NCBI RefSeq assembly: GCF_000015865.1
Contig: NC_009012.1
Coordinates: 558,001-622,000, forward strand
DNA from: Acetivibrio thermocellus ATCC 27405
GTDB taxonomy: Bacteria; Bacillota; Clostridia; Acetivibrionales; Acetivibrionaceae
Direction of reading: 5' to 3'
Length of the DNA: 64,000 nt
Part shown: positions 2,187-58,236 of the stretch, in pieces
How the letters are laid out: each line of letters starts with the position of its first letter
Numbering within the stretch: position 1 is the stretch's first letter
Notes under the pieces: model-generated
What the model saw: only the letters and a program-made list of their open reading frames with translations
Database searches by the model: none
Told to the model about the DNA's origin: nothing
Program-made: the position numbers and the translations under genes

Positions 2187-3281
2187 TTGCTGGAGTTTGA
2201 TATTGATATGGAACAATTTGCCCAGATAAGAGTTGTAGGTGTTGGCGGCGGAGGAAATAATGCTGTTAATAGAATGATAGATGCAGGATTGCGTGGAGTG
2301 GAATTTATTGCAATAAATACTGATAAACAGGCTTTGTATTTATCAAAGGCAAATACGAAAATTCAGATTGGAGATAAGTTGACAAAAGGTCTTGGAGCCG
2401 GAGCGAATCCTGAAATCGGGGAAAAAGCGGCCAATGAGAGCAGAGATGAAATTGCTCAGGCAATAAAAGGTGCGGACATGGTTTTTGTAACTGCAGGCAT
2501 GGGCGGAGGAACAGGAACCGGAGCTGCTCCCGTAGTTGCTGAAATTGCAAAGGAAATGGGAATTCTGACTGTCGGAGTGGTAACAAAGCCTTTTATGTTT
2601 GAGGGAAGAAAGAGAATGCAGCATGCCGAAAGAGGTATAGAGAACCTTAAAAACACTGTTGATACTCTGGTTACCATACCGAATGACAGACTGCTCCAGG
2701 TGGCTGAAAAGAAAACTTCCATTGTAGATGCCTTCAGGATAGCGGATGATGTGTTAAGACAGGGTGTACAGGGTATATCTGATCTTATTGCTGTACCCGG
2801 TTTGGTGAATTTGGACTTTGCAGACGTTAAAACCATTATGCAAAATACAGGGCTTGCCCATATGGGTATTGGACGGGCATCCGGCGACAACAGAGCTGAA
2901 GAAGCTGCAAGACAGGCTATTCAGAGTCCCCTTTTGGAGACATCCATTGAAGGAGCGAGAGGGGTTCTTCTTAATATTACCGGCGGGGCTGATTTGGGAT
3001 TATTTGAAGTTAATACTGCGGCAGAGCTGGTGCAAAAATCGGCTGATCCTGATGCGAATATTATTTTCGGTGCGGTTATTGATGAAAATTTGAAGGATGA
3101 GATTTTAATTACCGTAATTGCTACAGGGTTTGACAAAGTTCCTTCAATCAGGAAATCTGACAAGTCTGCTGTGGCTGATAAAGCGCCTTCGGCAACTTCC
3201 GGCGAAAAAGCTTCTGCAAGCCAGTTTGGGGCGGATGAACTCGAAATACCGACTTTCCTCAGGAGAAACAGATTTAAATAA
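2187..3281 (+). CDS. ftsZ: Cell division GTPase FtsZ
   Basis: Tubulin-like GTPase that forms the cytokinetic Z-ring. The glycine-rich tubulin signature GGGTGTG is at residues 106-112, the T7 synergy loop (NLDFADV) lies in the second half, and the C-terminal FtsA-binding tail ends [14 protein letters not shown]. The start chosen is TTG at 2187 (364 residues), 7 nt after GAAGGGGG (2172-2179), giving the usual N-terminus before RVVGVGGGG. An in-frame TTG at 2151 has a weaker binding site. A strong terminator follows. Confidence 0.97.
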
Positions 3282-3300
3282 ACACTTTTCAACAATAAAG

Positions 3301-3341
3301 CACAGGAGTATATCGAAAAGGATATACTCCTGTGTTTTTTT
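3301..3341 (+). terminator. Rho-independent terminator after ftsZ
   Basis: A perfect 14-bp stem (3301-3314 with 3321-3334), a 6-nt loop and seven T. It cleanly separates the division genes from the sporulation sigma-factor cluster. Confidence 0.92.
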
Positions 3342-3372
3342 GTCATAAGATTTTTTTATTCTATGCTTCAGT

Positions 3373-3405
3373 TTTACAAAATAAATATAAATTTATCTGT
3401 ATAAT
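3373..3405 (+). promoter_or_regulatory. Candidate spoIIG promoter with long spacer
   Basis: TTTACA (3373-3378) and TATAAT (3400-3405) are separated by 21 nt instead of about 17. The B. subtilis spoIIG promoter is known to have sigma-A-type boxes with an abnormally long spacer and to need Spo0A. The same geometry upstream of spoIIGA here is suggestive. No convincing Spo0A box (TGTCGAA) was seen next to it. Confidence 0.4.
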
Positions 3406-3516
3406 CAATAATAAAAATACATGCTTTTGCATATATGTTATTTAGGACAGTGCTTTATGTAAGGTACTGTAAGAATAATTTTCTCTATGATTTTGCCGGA
3501 TTCGGGGGTCGAGGGA

Positions 3517-4410
3517 ATGAAGGTATACATCGATGTGCTGGTAATGGAAAACATCGTTATGAATTATCTTATTTTACTGCTTACTGCCAAGTTTATGAGA
3601 CACAAGCCGTCTCATTTGCGTTTGTTTCTGGGGGCTTTGGCAGGGGCGGCATATGTGGTTGTACTGCTTTTGATGCCCAATTTGAAAGTATATTGCACCA
3701 CGTTGGCTAAATTTGCCTTGTCCCTCCTGATTGTTGCAATAGCTTTTTCTCCGGCCAAACCGGCACTTTTCATTAAAACACTGGCGGTATTTTATGTTTC
3801 GACTTTTATATTTGCGGGAGCGGCATTTGCATTTCTTTATTTGAATCAAACCGGCGGTTTTGTCAGGAACGGCATAGTGTACATATGGAATTCGAAAGGA
3901 ACGACCCTCTTTTTTGCTGTGGCAACCGTCGGCATAATTATAAGAATTTTCTGGGACATAGTACAGCAAAGAATTTCAAAAGAAAAGCTTCTCATGCCTC
4001 TAAAGATTGCTTTTGGAAATGGAACCATAGAATTGTTTGCTTTGGTTGATACCGGTAACTCTCTTTGCGACCCGTTGACCAACTCCCCTGTTGTGGTTGT
4101 GGAGTTTAATGCCATAAAAAACATATTACCCATGGAAATTCAGAGAATTTTTGATGAATCAAAGGAAAATGACCTGGACAGTGTGACCAAAATAGTGTCC
4201 GACTCCAAGTGGATGTCCAGATTCAGACTTATACCTTTTACCTCATTGGGCAAAGAGAACGGAATGCTGATTGGGTTCAGACCGGACTATATTGAAGTGG
4301 GGGAAAATGCGGAGAAAAAAGGAATAACGGATGTAATTATCGGCATTTATAACAGAGCTCTGTCAAAGAATAATAATTACAGTGCACTACTTAGCCCGGA
4401 ACTGATTTAA
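3517..4410 (+). CDS. spoIIGA: Pro-sigma-E processing aspartic protease SpoIIGA
   Basis: Membrane protease that cleaves the pro-sequence of sigma-E in the mother cell during sporulation, activated by forespore SpoIIR. The N-terminal half has about five hydrophobic segments and the C-terminal half is a cytosolic aspartic-protease domain with catalytic DTGN at residues 178-181. The start chosen is ATG 3517 (297 residues, MKVYIDVLVMEN). This matches the family N-terminus better than ATG 3487. It is followed directly by sigE, its substrate, as in other spore formers. Confidence 0.94.
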   Translation: MKVYIDVLVMENIVMNYLILLLTAKFMRHKPSHLRLFLGALAGAAYVVVLLLMPNLKVYCTTLAKFALSLLIVAIAFSPAKPALFIKTLAVFYVSTFIFAGAAFAFLYLNQTGGFVRNGIVYIWNSKGTTLFFAVATVGIIIRIFWDIVQQRISKEKLLMPLKIAFGNGTIELFALVDTGNSLCDPLTNSPVVVVEFNAIKNILPMEIQRIFDESKENDLDSVTKIVSDSKWMSRFRLIPFTSLGKENGMLIGFRPDYIEVGENAEKKGITDVIIGIYNRALSKNNNYSALLSPELI

Positions 4411-4462
4411 ATTGTAACTTTTCAACAACGAATATAAATTTTTTACGAAAGGGGTATATAAT

Positions 4463-5197
4463 ATGTTTTTTTTAAAGAAGCTGAAACTTTCTTTAATGGT
4501 TGGGTATATTAACTTACTTAACAAACTGAAGCTTTACAACAATTATCCTGTTTACTACATTGGGGGAAGTGAGGCTCTTCCGCCGCCGCTTACCAACGAT
4601 GAGGAAAATTATCTTTTAAGCAAGCTTGAGAAAAGGGATTTTGGGGTAAAGTCAATTTTGATTGAAAGGAATTTAAGACTTGTGGTTTATATTGCAAGAA
4701 AATTTGAGAATACCGGAGTGGGGGTTGAAGACCTTGTTTCCATTGGCACCATTGGACTTATCAAGGCAATTAACACATTTGACCCCAATAAAAATATAAA
4801 ACTTGCCACATATGCATCAAGGTGTATTGAAAATGAGATACTTATGTACCTTAGGAGAAACAACAGAATGAAGACAGAAATCTCAATAGATGAGCCGCTG
4901 AATGTGGATTGGGACGGGAATGAATTGCTTCTTTCAGATATTCTTGGAACGGAAAATGACCTTATCCACAGGAGTATTGAGGACGAGATAGACAAAGAGC
5001 TTCTTGCCATGGCAATGAAAAAGCTGTCTGTCAGGGAAAAGAAGATAATGGAGCTTCGATTTGGTCTTACAAACGGCGGAGTTGAAAAAACGCAGAAGGA
5101 AGTTGCCGATATGCTTGGTATTTCCCAGTCGTACATTTCCAGACTGGAAAAGAAGATTATCAGTAGGCTTAGAAAAGAGATAAGCAGAATGGTTTGA
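4463..5197 (+). CDS. sigE: Sporulation sigma factor sigma-E precursor
   Basis: Mother-cell-specific sigma-70 family factor of 244 residues. The hydrophobic/basic pro-sequence occupies about residues 1-30 and ends near [13 protein letters not shown] (31-43), the conserved processing region. Regions 2 and 4 are complete, with the region 4.2 helix-turn-helix around [27 protein letters not shown] lies upstream of the ATG. It follows spoIIGA and precedes sigG, the standard spoIIG-spoIIIG cluster. Confidence 0.96.
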
Positions 5198-5292
5198 TTG
5201 TAAAAAAATACAAGAAAAATTGAATGTTAGAATTCCCAATTACTTCGCGGTTTGTCAAGGTGTTTTTATGAAATTTTGTAGTCTTTTTAGCA

Positions 5293-5321
5293 GTATAAAA
5301 ATGACCTCCGTGGCAATAATG
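5293..5321 (+). promoter_or_regulatory. Candidate sigma-F/sigma-G promoter of sigG
   Basis: GTATA (5293-5297), a 14-nt gap and GGCAATAATG (5312-5321) match the sigma-F/sigma-G pattern (GYWTA and GGnRAnAnTW) except for the last base. sigG is known to be transcribed by sigma-F and then by itself. The -10 box overlaps the left arm of the inverted repeat at 5304-5350. Transcripts starting here, near 5328, would therefore lack that arm. Confidence 0.5.
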
Positions 5322-5350
5322 ATACTGACTTTAAATTATTGCCGGGAGGT
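5304..5350 (+). promoter_or_regulatory. Inverted repeat sequestering the sigG ribosome-binding site
   Basis: ACCTCC (5304-5309) pairs with GGAGGT (5345-5350), and GGCAATAAT (5312-5320) pairs with ATTATTGCC (5335-5343). This gives 15 paired bases with a small bulge and a 14-nt loop. The right arm contains the Shine-Dalgarno sequence of sigG. A conserved sigG leader hairpin occluding the ribosome-binding site is known in B. subtilis, and this looks like its clostridial counterpart. Confidence 0.75.
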
Positions 5351-5357
5351 TTTTTCT

Positions 5358-6131
5358 ATGCTAGTCAATAAAGTAGAAATATGTGGTGTGAACACATCAA
5401 AGTTGCCAGTACTTACCAATGAACAAAAGAAAGAGCTCTTCGAAAGAATGCATAAAGGAGATACCTCGGCAAGAGAGGAATTTATAAAGGGAAATTTGAG
5501 GCTTGTGTTAAGTGTTATCCAGAGATTTAACAATAGAGGGGAATATGTTGACGACCTTTTTCAGGTCGGATGTATAGGTCTTATAAAGGCAATTGACAAT
5601 TTTGACGTTACTCAGAATGTTAAGTTTTCCACATATGCTGTTCCCATGATAATTGGAGAAATCCGAAGATATTTGAGGGACAACAATGCGATTCGTGTAA
5701 GCAGATCTTTGAGAGATATTGCCTATAAAGCGCTTCAGGCAAAAGAAAAACTTACAAATCAAAATTCAAAAGAGCCTACCATAGAGGAAATAGCCAAAGA
5801 ACTGGGCCTTCCAAAGGAAGAAGTTGTGTTTGCTTTGGATGCAATACAGGATCCGATTTCTCTGTTTGAATCCGTGTATCATGACGGTGGAGATGCAATT
5901 TATGTGATGGACCAGGTAAAAGACGAGAAAAATAATGATGAAAACTGGCTTGAAGGTATAGCTTTAAGTGAAGCTATGAGAAAACTCAATGACCGGGAAA
6001 AGCTTATACTGAATTTGCGCTTTTTTGACGGCAGAACCCAGATGGAAGTTGCTGAAGAAATAGGAATATCGCAGGCCCAGGTTTCAAGACTTGAAAAAAC
6101 TGCGCTTATGCATATGAGAAAGTATATTTGA
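5358..6131 (+). CDS. sigG: Forespore sigma factor sigma-G
   Basis: Late forespore-specific sigma-70 family factor, 257 residues. The N-terminus NKVEICGVNTSKLPVL is the family hallmark. Region 2 is followed by regions 3 and 4, ending in the helix-turn-helix MEVAEEIGISQAQVSRLE. The start is ATG 5358, 7 nt after GGGAGGT (5344-5350). The longer frame from 5220 has no family similarity and contains the promoter. The ribosome-binding site lies in a hairpin, see 5304-5350. Confidence 0.96.
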   Translation: MLVNKVEICGVNTSKLPVLTNEQKKELFERMHKGDTSAREEFIKGNLRLVLSVIQRFNNRGEYVDDLFQVGCIGLIKAIDNFDVTQNVKFSTYAVPMIIGEIRRYLRDNNAIRVSRSLRDIAYKALQAKEKLTNQNSKEPTIEEIAKELGLPKEEVVFALDAIQDPISLFESVYHDGGDAIYVMDQVKDEKNNDENWLEGIALSEAMRKLNDREKLILNLRFFDGRTQMEVAEEIGISQAQVSRLEKTALMHMRKYI

Positions 6132-6248
6132 TGTTTTGATGTATATTTGTGTAATAGAAAATAGTTTCCACTGATTATCAATTAAAGGATAGAATTTATC
6201 AATTAAAGGATACAATGGGGATTGGAAACTATATTTCGATAAATTTTG

Positions 6249-6293
6249 AAGGAGTCAGGGAGCGGAAAACATTTTGATGTTCTCTGACTCCTT
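6249..6293 (+). terminator. Hairpin after sigG
   Basis: A 14-bp stem with two G-T pairs (6249-6262 with 6280-6293) and a loop of about 17 nt. The downstream stretch TTAATTAATG is not a clean T-run. It may be a terminator for the sigE-sigG transcript. Two copies of ATCAATTAAAGGATA lie just upstream (6177-6213). Confidence 0.5.
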
Positions 6294-6387
6294 AATTAAT
6301 GGGACAAAAGCCACTGTAACATATCATTTTTCGTAAAATCATATATTAAACGTAGAGATTAAAAAAGCCTTATTCGGTGGTGGTATT

Positions 6388-6648
6388 ATGAACAGGACGT
6401 CTGATTTTAGGGAAAAAGAAGTAATTAATATAAAAGACGGAAGGAGACTTGGATTTGTCAGCGATGTGGAAATAAATCTCCAAAGCGGCAGAATTGAGGC
6501 GATTGTAATTCCAAGCGGGGGAAGACTCCTTGGGCTCATTGGCAGAGACAATGAATGTGTTATACCTTGGGAAAAAATAAAAAAGATAGGGGAAGATATT
6601 ATTCTGGTGGAAATGGATGACAGATTTATACGAAAACATTTTGAATGA
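6388..6648 (+). CDS. YlmC/YmxH-family PRC-barrel protein
   Basis: A small 86-residue protein with a single PRC-barrel-like fold (GRRLGFVSDVEINLQSGRIEAIVI). It matches the YlmC/YmxH family of spore formers, found near sporulation genes and of unknown biochemical role. GGTGGT lies before the ATG. It sits alone between the sigG hairpin and nrdR, so it probably has its own promoter. Confidence 0.8.
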   Translation: MNRTSDFREKEVINIKDGRRLGFVSDVEINLQSGRIEAIVIPSGGRLLGLIGRDNECVIPWEKIKKIGEDIILVEMDDRFIRKHFE

Positions 6649-6795
6649 GTGCTGAATCAATAACGGTATTTATTAAAAACATTTTATAGTGTATTATATA
6701 AAAAGATATGTATTTTTACATAGCAAAAGATAGTATTTGATGGAAATGGATTTGCATAAAAAGTATTTCAAAAAAACAGTCGGAGGAGGTATGAA

Positions 6796-7251
6796 ATGAA
6801 GTGCCCATATTGCGGTTATATTGAGGATAGGGTTATCGATTCAAGGCCAACGGATGAGGGGTCGGCAATACGGAGAAGAAGAGAATGTTCCAAATGCCTG
6901 AAAAGATTTACCACCTATGAAAAGGTTGAAAGTCTTCCCATTATGGTCATAAAAAAAGACAAGAGCAGACAGGCTTTTGACCGGGAGAAGCTTTTAAACG
7001 GAATTTTGAGGGCATGTGAAAAAAGGCCTGTATCCATTGAACAACTGGAAAAACTGGTTGATGACATTGAGAGTCAAATTCATAATTCCCTGCAGAGGGA
7101 GGTTACTTCCAAAGATATCGGAGAAATGGTAATGGCAAAGCTCAAAAACTTGGATGAAGTGGCTTATGTTAGGTTTGCGTCGGTTTACAGGCAGTTTAAG
7201 GATATAAATACCTTTATGGACGAGCTTCGCAAGCTTTTAAACGAGAAGTAG
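6796..7251 (+). CDS. nrdR: Transcriptional repressor NrdR
   Basis: Zinc-ribbon/ATP-cone repressor of ribonucleotide reductase genes, 151 residues, the normal length. The zinc ribbon uses Cys3, Cys6, Cys31 and Cys34. The arginine-rich DNA-binding stretch (RRRR, 26-29) follows, then the ATP-cone (about 49-139) that senses ATP/dATP. GGAGGAGG precedes the ATG. No ribonucleotide reductase gene is in the window, so its targets lie elsewhere. Confidence 0.96.
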
Positions 7252-58067: not shown

Positions 58068-58236
58068 TAAGGAAAAAAATACTTTTGTAGCGACTTAAAA
58101 GTCAATTGAATGGACCAATAAAGGACCTTTTCAAATTTGTCAAGGTATTTTAGGACAATTTTTTTTATTTTGGATATTGTTCTTGTTTATTGGGTAAATA
58201 TATAGTGACATTTTAGATTTGAAAGGGATGAGAAGG

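Follow-up and report, generated by a model that had tools for sequence, protein, structure and literature searches.

A hairpin joining the sigG promoter spacer to the sigG Shine-Dalgarno sequence, a probable read-through silencer in Acetivibrio thermocellus and other endospore formers

In Bacillus subtilis, expression of the operon ahead of sigG begins before there is a forespore. Misplaced activity of sigma-G does harm in this organism, according to the available sections of Mearls 2018 (PMC5942855). Three transcripts, spoIIGA-sigE-sigG, spoIIGA-sigE and sigG, are described for B. subtilis and C. acetobutylicum in the available part of another study (PMC3789822), and these relatives therefore have both read-through into sigG and an end before it. 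For C. difficile sigG a minimum of two promoters has been suggested, with one located before spoIIGA (available parts of PMC7438776 and PMC3789822). Two different hairpins at the B. subtilis sigG ribosome-binding site (RBS) appear in the available text of Mearls 2018 (PMC5942855). A large one, of at least 20 pairs, does not form in PsigG transcripts and has been proposed to keep read-through RNA from PspoIIG from being translated; references 9 and 52, the latter a 1988 PNAS paper, are cited for this proposal. The hairpin tested experimentally is a separate, 5-bp one within the PsigG leader (–6.2 kcal/mol, 2–4-fold effect). No discussion of the conservation of the large hairpin beyond B. subtilis was found in that text, and the available parts of PMC5171806 and PMC3789829 offered nothing on either a read-through hairpin in clostridia or an anti-Shine-Dalgarno sequence in the promoter spacer. 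No other paper on either subject was recognised in the literature searched, an incomplete body with most subscription papers outside it.

We analysed a stretch of 64,000 nucleotides, from position 558,001 to position 622,000, of the Acetivibrio thermocellus ATCC 27405 genome (hereafter the window; all features below are on its plus strand). NCBIfam models identify the consecutive genes ftsZ, spoIIGA, sigE, sigG, a YlmC/YmxH-family sporulation gene and nrdR. The sigma-E processing peptidase gene spoIIGA (3487..4410; TIGR02854, 237 bits, above cut-off), at the head of the presumed read-through transcript, is followed by sigE (4463..5197; TIGR02835, 404 bits, above cut-off) and sigG (5358..6131; TIGR02850, 497 bits against a cut-off of 457); the available part of a published table lists them as Cthe_0446, Cthe_0447 and Cthe_0448 (PMC4236516). 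All three lie on the same strand with sigG directly downstream, and 160 bases separate the sigE stop from the sigG start.

The first-pass annotation had placed at 5304–5350 a hairpin that buries the sigG Shine-Dalgarno (SD) sequence GGAGGT, and folding returned it at exactly these coordinates. The left arm (5304–5309 and 5311–5320, with G5310 bulged) and the right arm (5335–5350) enclose a 14-nt loop (5321–5334), and the SD (5345–5350) lies entirely within the right arm. The core forms 16 pairs (6, a 1-nt bulge, then 10) at –21.2 kcal/mol. With its flanks (5295–5365) the stem grows to 23 pairs at –23.9 kcal/mol, touching the edge of the sigG start codon and having the at least 20 pairs of the B. 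subtilis-type RBS-covering hairpin; this fold has a z of –5.3, and 0 of 200 dinucleotide shuffles folded equally well. A longer read-through RNA (5100–5460) still folds the hairpin. An Rfam search of bases 3200–6900 gave zero matches up to an E value of 1.

The left arm coincides with a predicted promoter, PsigG, of sigma-F/G type. Its –35 element GTATA (5293–5297) is followed by a 14-bp spacer (5298–5311) that holds the SD-complementary ACCTCC, and by the –10 element GGCAATAATG (5312–5321), whose first nine bases lie within the left arm. From the site of the –10, transcription is predicted to begin at 5328. The left arm thus takes in the spacer from ACCTCC onward, which is the greater part of it, and runs on into the –10, where it ends; it is therefore absent from any transcript started downstream of that –10. 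An overlap of this arm with the –10 box had been noted at first pass; it is real for the nine –10 bases, and ACCTCC itself belongs to the spacer.

Opening the SD would cost 12.7 kcal/mol in the predicted read-through RNA, compared with 1.4 kcal/mol in RNA from the predicted start at 5328; a further set of folds gave 12.2–12.5 and 1.2–1.5 kcal/mol, and at 60 °C the costs are 8.7–9.3 and 0.9–1.1 kcal/mol, respectively. These energies are for RNA alone, with ribosomes, co-transcriptional folding and proteins ignored. Among 297 predicted gene starts (long reading frames with an SD-like sequence, from the window and twenty 20-kb stretches, 464 kb of genome), sigG ranked first for SD opening cost, at 12.7 kcal/mol against a median of 2.1.

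This contrast bears on the idea that the hairpin damps translation from within the PsigG transcript, for which the precedent is the small B. subtilis RBS hairpin with its –6.2 kcal/mol and 2–4-fold effect (PMC5942855, available text). We regard this as scarcely credible here: a transcript begun anywhere past the –10 would leave the arm behind it, opening the SD of the native leader costs only 1.2–1.5 kcal/mol, and such hairpins were reported in only 4 of 13 Clostridia (Mearls, available text of PMC5942855). An RBS hairpin of about –6 kcal/mol was not evident in the window's predicted PsigG leader, where the native fold has three pairs around the SD. The first-pass statement that the known B. 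subtilis hairpin lowers sigG translation matches the other B. subtilis hairpin, the 5-bp one inside the PsigG transcript, which is not evident in the window. A near-identical inverted repeat, TTTCTCCTTGGGAGG, occurs at the sigG SD of five Paenibacillus-titled loci (L194, L199, L200, L210 and L212, with one base different in L199) and resembles the small RBS hairpin described for Bacilli.

For comparison across species, 205 sigG upstream regions were collected, mostly from Clostridia. All 55 order-level matches were used, together with 76 of the 94 at class level (6 shared with the order level; the 18 left out were mostly the weakest) and the best 80 of 592 loci, a subset skewed to close relatives. 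One region (L196) was left out before counting because no start codon was found. Of the 204 regions with a recognisable start, 192 had a promoter score of at least 13 and formed 93 clusters at 70% identity, the window's cluster being the window and 50 others; the 12 loci left out for a score below 13 were L094, L102, L106, L115, L116, L121, L124, L130, L131, L151, L176 and L204. Apparently identical genomes present in two collections (e.g. L134/L064 and L135/L091) were counted once through clustering.

The sigma-F/G consensus is GNATA, a spacer of 14–15 bp and a GGNAATAAT-like –10. Scored against it, the window's GTATA-N14-GGCAATAATG is a strong match, reaching 15.7, at a fitting distance before sigG. 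Scores of at least 13 were found in 192 of 204 sigG upstream regions vs. 2.2% of 1020 shuffles, and scores of at least 14 in 172 of 204 vs. 0 of 1020. The bare pattern was no rarer genome-wide than a reversed control (20 vs. 19 matches), and it is therefore position and conservation that make PsigG credible. Within the window's cluster, 49 of 51 members have the 14-bp spacer, and all 6 loci titled Paenibacillus or Bacillaceae have it too. The available text of Mearls gives 14-bp spacing for 14 of 15 Bacilli and for only 3 of 13 Clostridia (PMC5942855), so that the window's lineage resembles Bacilli in this respect. The –10 and the start codon are 36 nt apart in the window and 26 to 155 nt apart over the 192 loci. 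Long insertions between –10 and SD are seen in L021, L031, L073, L081, L084–L086 and L090; in L081 and L084–L086 the insert is an inverted repeat of its own (AAAGTCAAT..ATTGACTTT), and the SD-complementary bases are still in the spacer.

A second conserved feature lies about 40 nt before the –35. This block, TTGTCAAGG..TTT..AAAATTTT (TTGTCAAGG..AAATTTT in the window, 5252–5277), is shared by the window, L001, L009, L024, L042, L072, L098, L100 and others. The word TGTCAAGG is present in 63 of 192 loci and 10 of 93 clusters, and its start precedes the –35 by 39 or 40 nt in 58 loci, by 41 nt in 1 and by 50 nt in 4. Because the spacing is nearly fixed, with the small set about one helical turn further away, the block suggests a DNA-bound activator site or an UP-like element. 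The word TTGTCAAGGTATTTT, followed by a T-rich stretch, also occurs at 58137–58170, before an ORF at 58219 that we take to be pyruvate formate-lyase-like, and the element is therefore not confined to sigG. In the genome, TTGTCAAGGNNTTT matches six places. Pattern searches with the TTGTCAAGG block identified no binder.

On average, the promoter segment pairs better with the SD region of its own locus than with those of other clusters. Across the 93 clusters, the –35/–10 segment paired with its own SD region at a mean of –13.35 kcal/mol, compared with –9.69 kcal/mol on permutation, and 0 of 20,000 permutations were as low (sd of permutation means 0.28). These permutation tests were made on 70%-identity clusters and ignore kinship (the tree). 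Against the segments of other clusters, 26 of 93 clusters individually reached p ≤ 0.05. When the left window was slid from 110 upstream to the leader, the signal peaked at the spacer/–10 (z –13.5), which is the hairpin's left arm; partly overlapping edge windows gave z of –5.8 and –6.8, and z was 0 to –2.1 elsewhere, with as few as 29 clusters represented in the leader windows. When the right window was slid instead, the signal peaked (z –9.6) at –18..–9 from the start codon, i.e. at the SD, and was weaker on both sides. Since neighbouring windows give little signal, shared composition is an unlikely cause of the coupling. Individual loci achieve the same pairing with different sequences: in L100, AACACACCT pairs with AGGTGTGTT, and in L061, CCTCTGTCC pairs with GGATGGAGG, with two G-U pairs. 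Cognate pairing that beats permuted pairing, with signal peaks at the spacer/–10 and the SD, indicates that the spacer/SD pairing is probably kept by selection.

The same data speak to the nature of the conserved object. The centre of the inverted repeat falls close to the predicted start, and the repeat is highly conserved in the window's group, as would be expected of a DNA palindrome at PsigG bound by a regulator. Arm sequences nevertheless differ across clusters while pairing of each arm with its own SD stays better than permuted, so that RNA pairing fits better than one fixed recognition sequence, and we hold a palindrome of this kind to be very improbable.

The extent of the RNA pairing was gauged with a within-locus control, in which a locus's own upstream DNA windows served as the reference (92 clusters, 191 sequences; L037 was excluded as its upstream sequence is too short). 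Values of p ≤ 0.05 were obtained for 37 of 92 clusters, which hold 117 of the 191 sequences. The other 55 clusters failed this control, and the hairpin is therefore common in the sample, not universal. Within the window's own group (56 distinct rows) no covariation was detected, with 77.0% of cells paired vs. 76.7% with rows permuted, because the arms are too conserved; with arms near-invariant there, the evidence for selection comes from the wider set. Among the 12 loci with low promoter scores, a wider upstream stretch gave p ≤ 0.05 in six (L106, L115, L124, L131, L151 and L176). Four sigG regions that lack a good promoter of this kind (L094, L176, L124 and L204) carry an upstream stretch able to pair with the bases around the start codon (p = 0.067, 0.029, 0.038 and 0.124, respectively), as in L124, where ATAGCAATAC is complementary to GTATTGCTAT.

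Just past the stem is a U-run (5351–5355), a possible intrinsic terminator tail that partly pairs with the A-run beside the –35; the loop has 14 nt and the upper stem is A/U-rich. The stem and U-run could thus form an intrinsic terminator of the spoIIGA-sigE transcript that halts polymerase before sigG, with SD burial as a by-product. Consistent with this, a separate spoIIGA-sigE transcript is reported for B. subtilis and C. acetobutylicum (available part of PMC3789822), 49 of the 51 sequences in the window's cluster have at least 5 T among the 8 bases past the stem, and a U-run accompanies 20 of 37 strong-arm clusters compared with 8 of 56 others (Fisher p = 7e-5). The terminator score is weakly positive (3.9), and a terminator scan limited to loops of 3–8 nt did not pick out this hairpin, the loop here being longer. 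Against termination as the main function, 17 of the 37 strong-arm clusters retain the pairing with the U-run missing, and the right-side coupling peak is on the SD. Presence of the U-run is also explicable otherwise, since part of it pairs with the A-run beside the –35 and lengthens the stem. We consider termination as the primary role rather unlikely. SD occlusion we take to be the shared function, and termination a possible addition in the window's lineage.

Gene order provides a further comparison, with sigE found upstream in 173 of 204 loci. In 55 of the 66 clusters with adjoining sigE, the SD is costlier to open in the read-through RNA than in the native one (medians 5.5 vs. 1.8 kcal/mol). 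Pairing in these 66 clusters was not significantly stronger than in the 23 clusters for which the search found no sigE upstream (Mann-Whitney p = 0.18); those 23 show the coupling as well (z –5.5, 0/5000). The threat may therefore be more than spoIIG read-through, and the hairpin might act as a general insulator, shielding sigG from any incoming transcription and not from spoIIG specifically. Besides the coupling in the unlinked clusters, L105, L118, L122 and L125, which have long same-strand non-sigE frames upstream, point in this direction. The within-locus control is less favourable, being passed by 7 of the 26 clusters that lack sigE or have it at a distance above 450 nt vs. 30 of 66 sigE-adjoining clusters; L126 passes it even though its long upstream frame is on the opposite strand, and some unlinked loci may be recent descendants of a sigE-linked state. 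General insulation is accordingly a tentative reading that we think doubtful.

We favour a read-through silencer that forms part of the sigG promoter itself, with a probability of about 0.76. RNA reading through from spoIIGA-sigE would carry the PsigG spacer and –10, which would fold over the sigG SD, and as far as the start codon's edge, with 16 to 23 pairs; with the SD folded away, ribosomes would be unable to start on this RNA. RNA made from PsigG by sigma-F, and later sigma-G, would begin past the –10, lacking the left arm and leaving the SD open. With read-through RNA silent and PsigG RNA open, synthesis of sigG protein would be confined to the forespore, where PsigG fires, even with the gene linked to an operon that is switched on earlier. 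In the window's lineage, the U-run may also terminate part of the read-through. Hairpin structure, promoter overlap and the coupled change of the arms across species are computed results; to these the model adds read-through in A. thermocellus, the position of the 5′ end, an effect on translation and the cell type concerned, which we infer. Neither transcript-start data nor a spoIIGA-sigE-sigG transcript was recognised for A. thermocellus (C. thermocellum) in the literature searched, most subscription papers being outside its coverage.

The promoter-choice switch proposed at first pass draws partial support from the anatomy, the difference in predicted folding and the spacer/SD coupling across species; it is not a new idea. 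What is new is the breadth across lineages and the coupled arm change, the hairpin idea itself having been proposed already. Reference 52 of Mearls 2018 is said to be Masuda et al. 1988. We would give even odds that an anti-SD within the –35/–10 spacer is an old, widely kept design of endospore formers, acting as a filter for promoter choice. If so, a spacer that is otherwise free would be selected as an RNA that exists only when its promoter is not used, and sigG could stay joined to, or move beside, other transcribed genes without misplaced or mistimed synthesis. The comparative data make an old one-species proposal a feature kept in many spore formers, and they name the bases for mutation. 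They also suggest that the spacer between promoter elements, usually taken as free, can be selected at the RNA level.

The window's hairpin is real, probably under selection and most likely a read-through silencer. Its nearest counterpart is the B. subtilis read-through hairpin, described at the same locus with at least 20 pairs over the sigG RBS, excluded from PsigG transcripts and proposed to block translation (Mearls 2018, available text). Likened to it by description, the window's hairpin has an arm made of the spacer and –10, and a U-run past its stem. The small B. subtilis RBS hairpin of the same study likewise occludes the sigG RBS; it differs in having 5 bp and –6.2 kcal/mol, in lying inside the PsigG transcript and in having been tested experimentally (available text). 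Intrinsic terminators or attenuators overlapping an SD likewise place a stem and then a U-run just before the coding start; unlike them, the hairpin described here lacks the U-run in 17 of 37 strong-arm clusters. The window's hairpin would also need no alternative antiterminator or ligand, as the choice would lie with the promoter.
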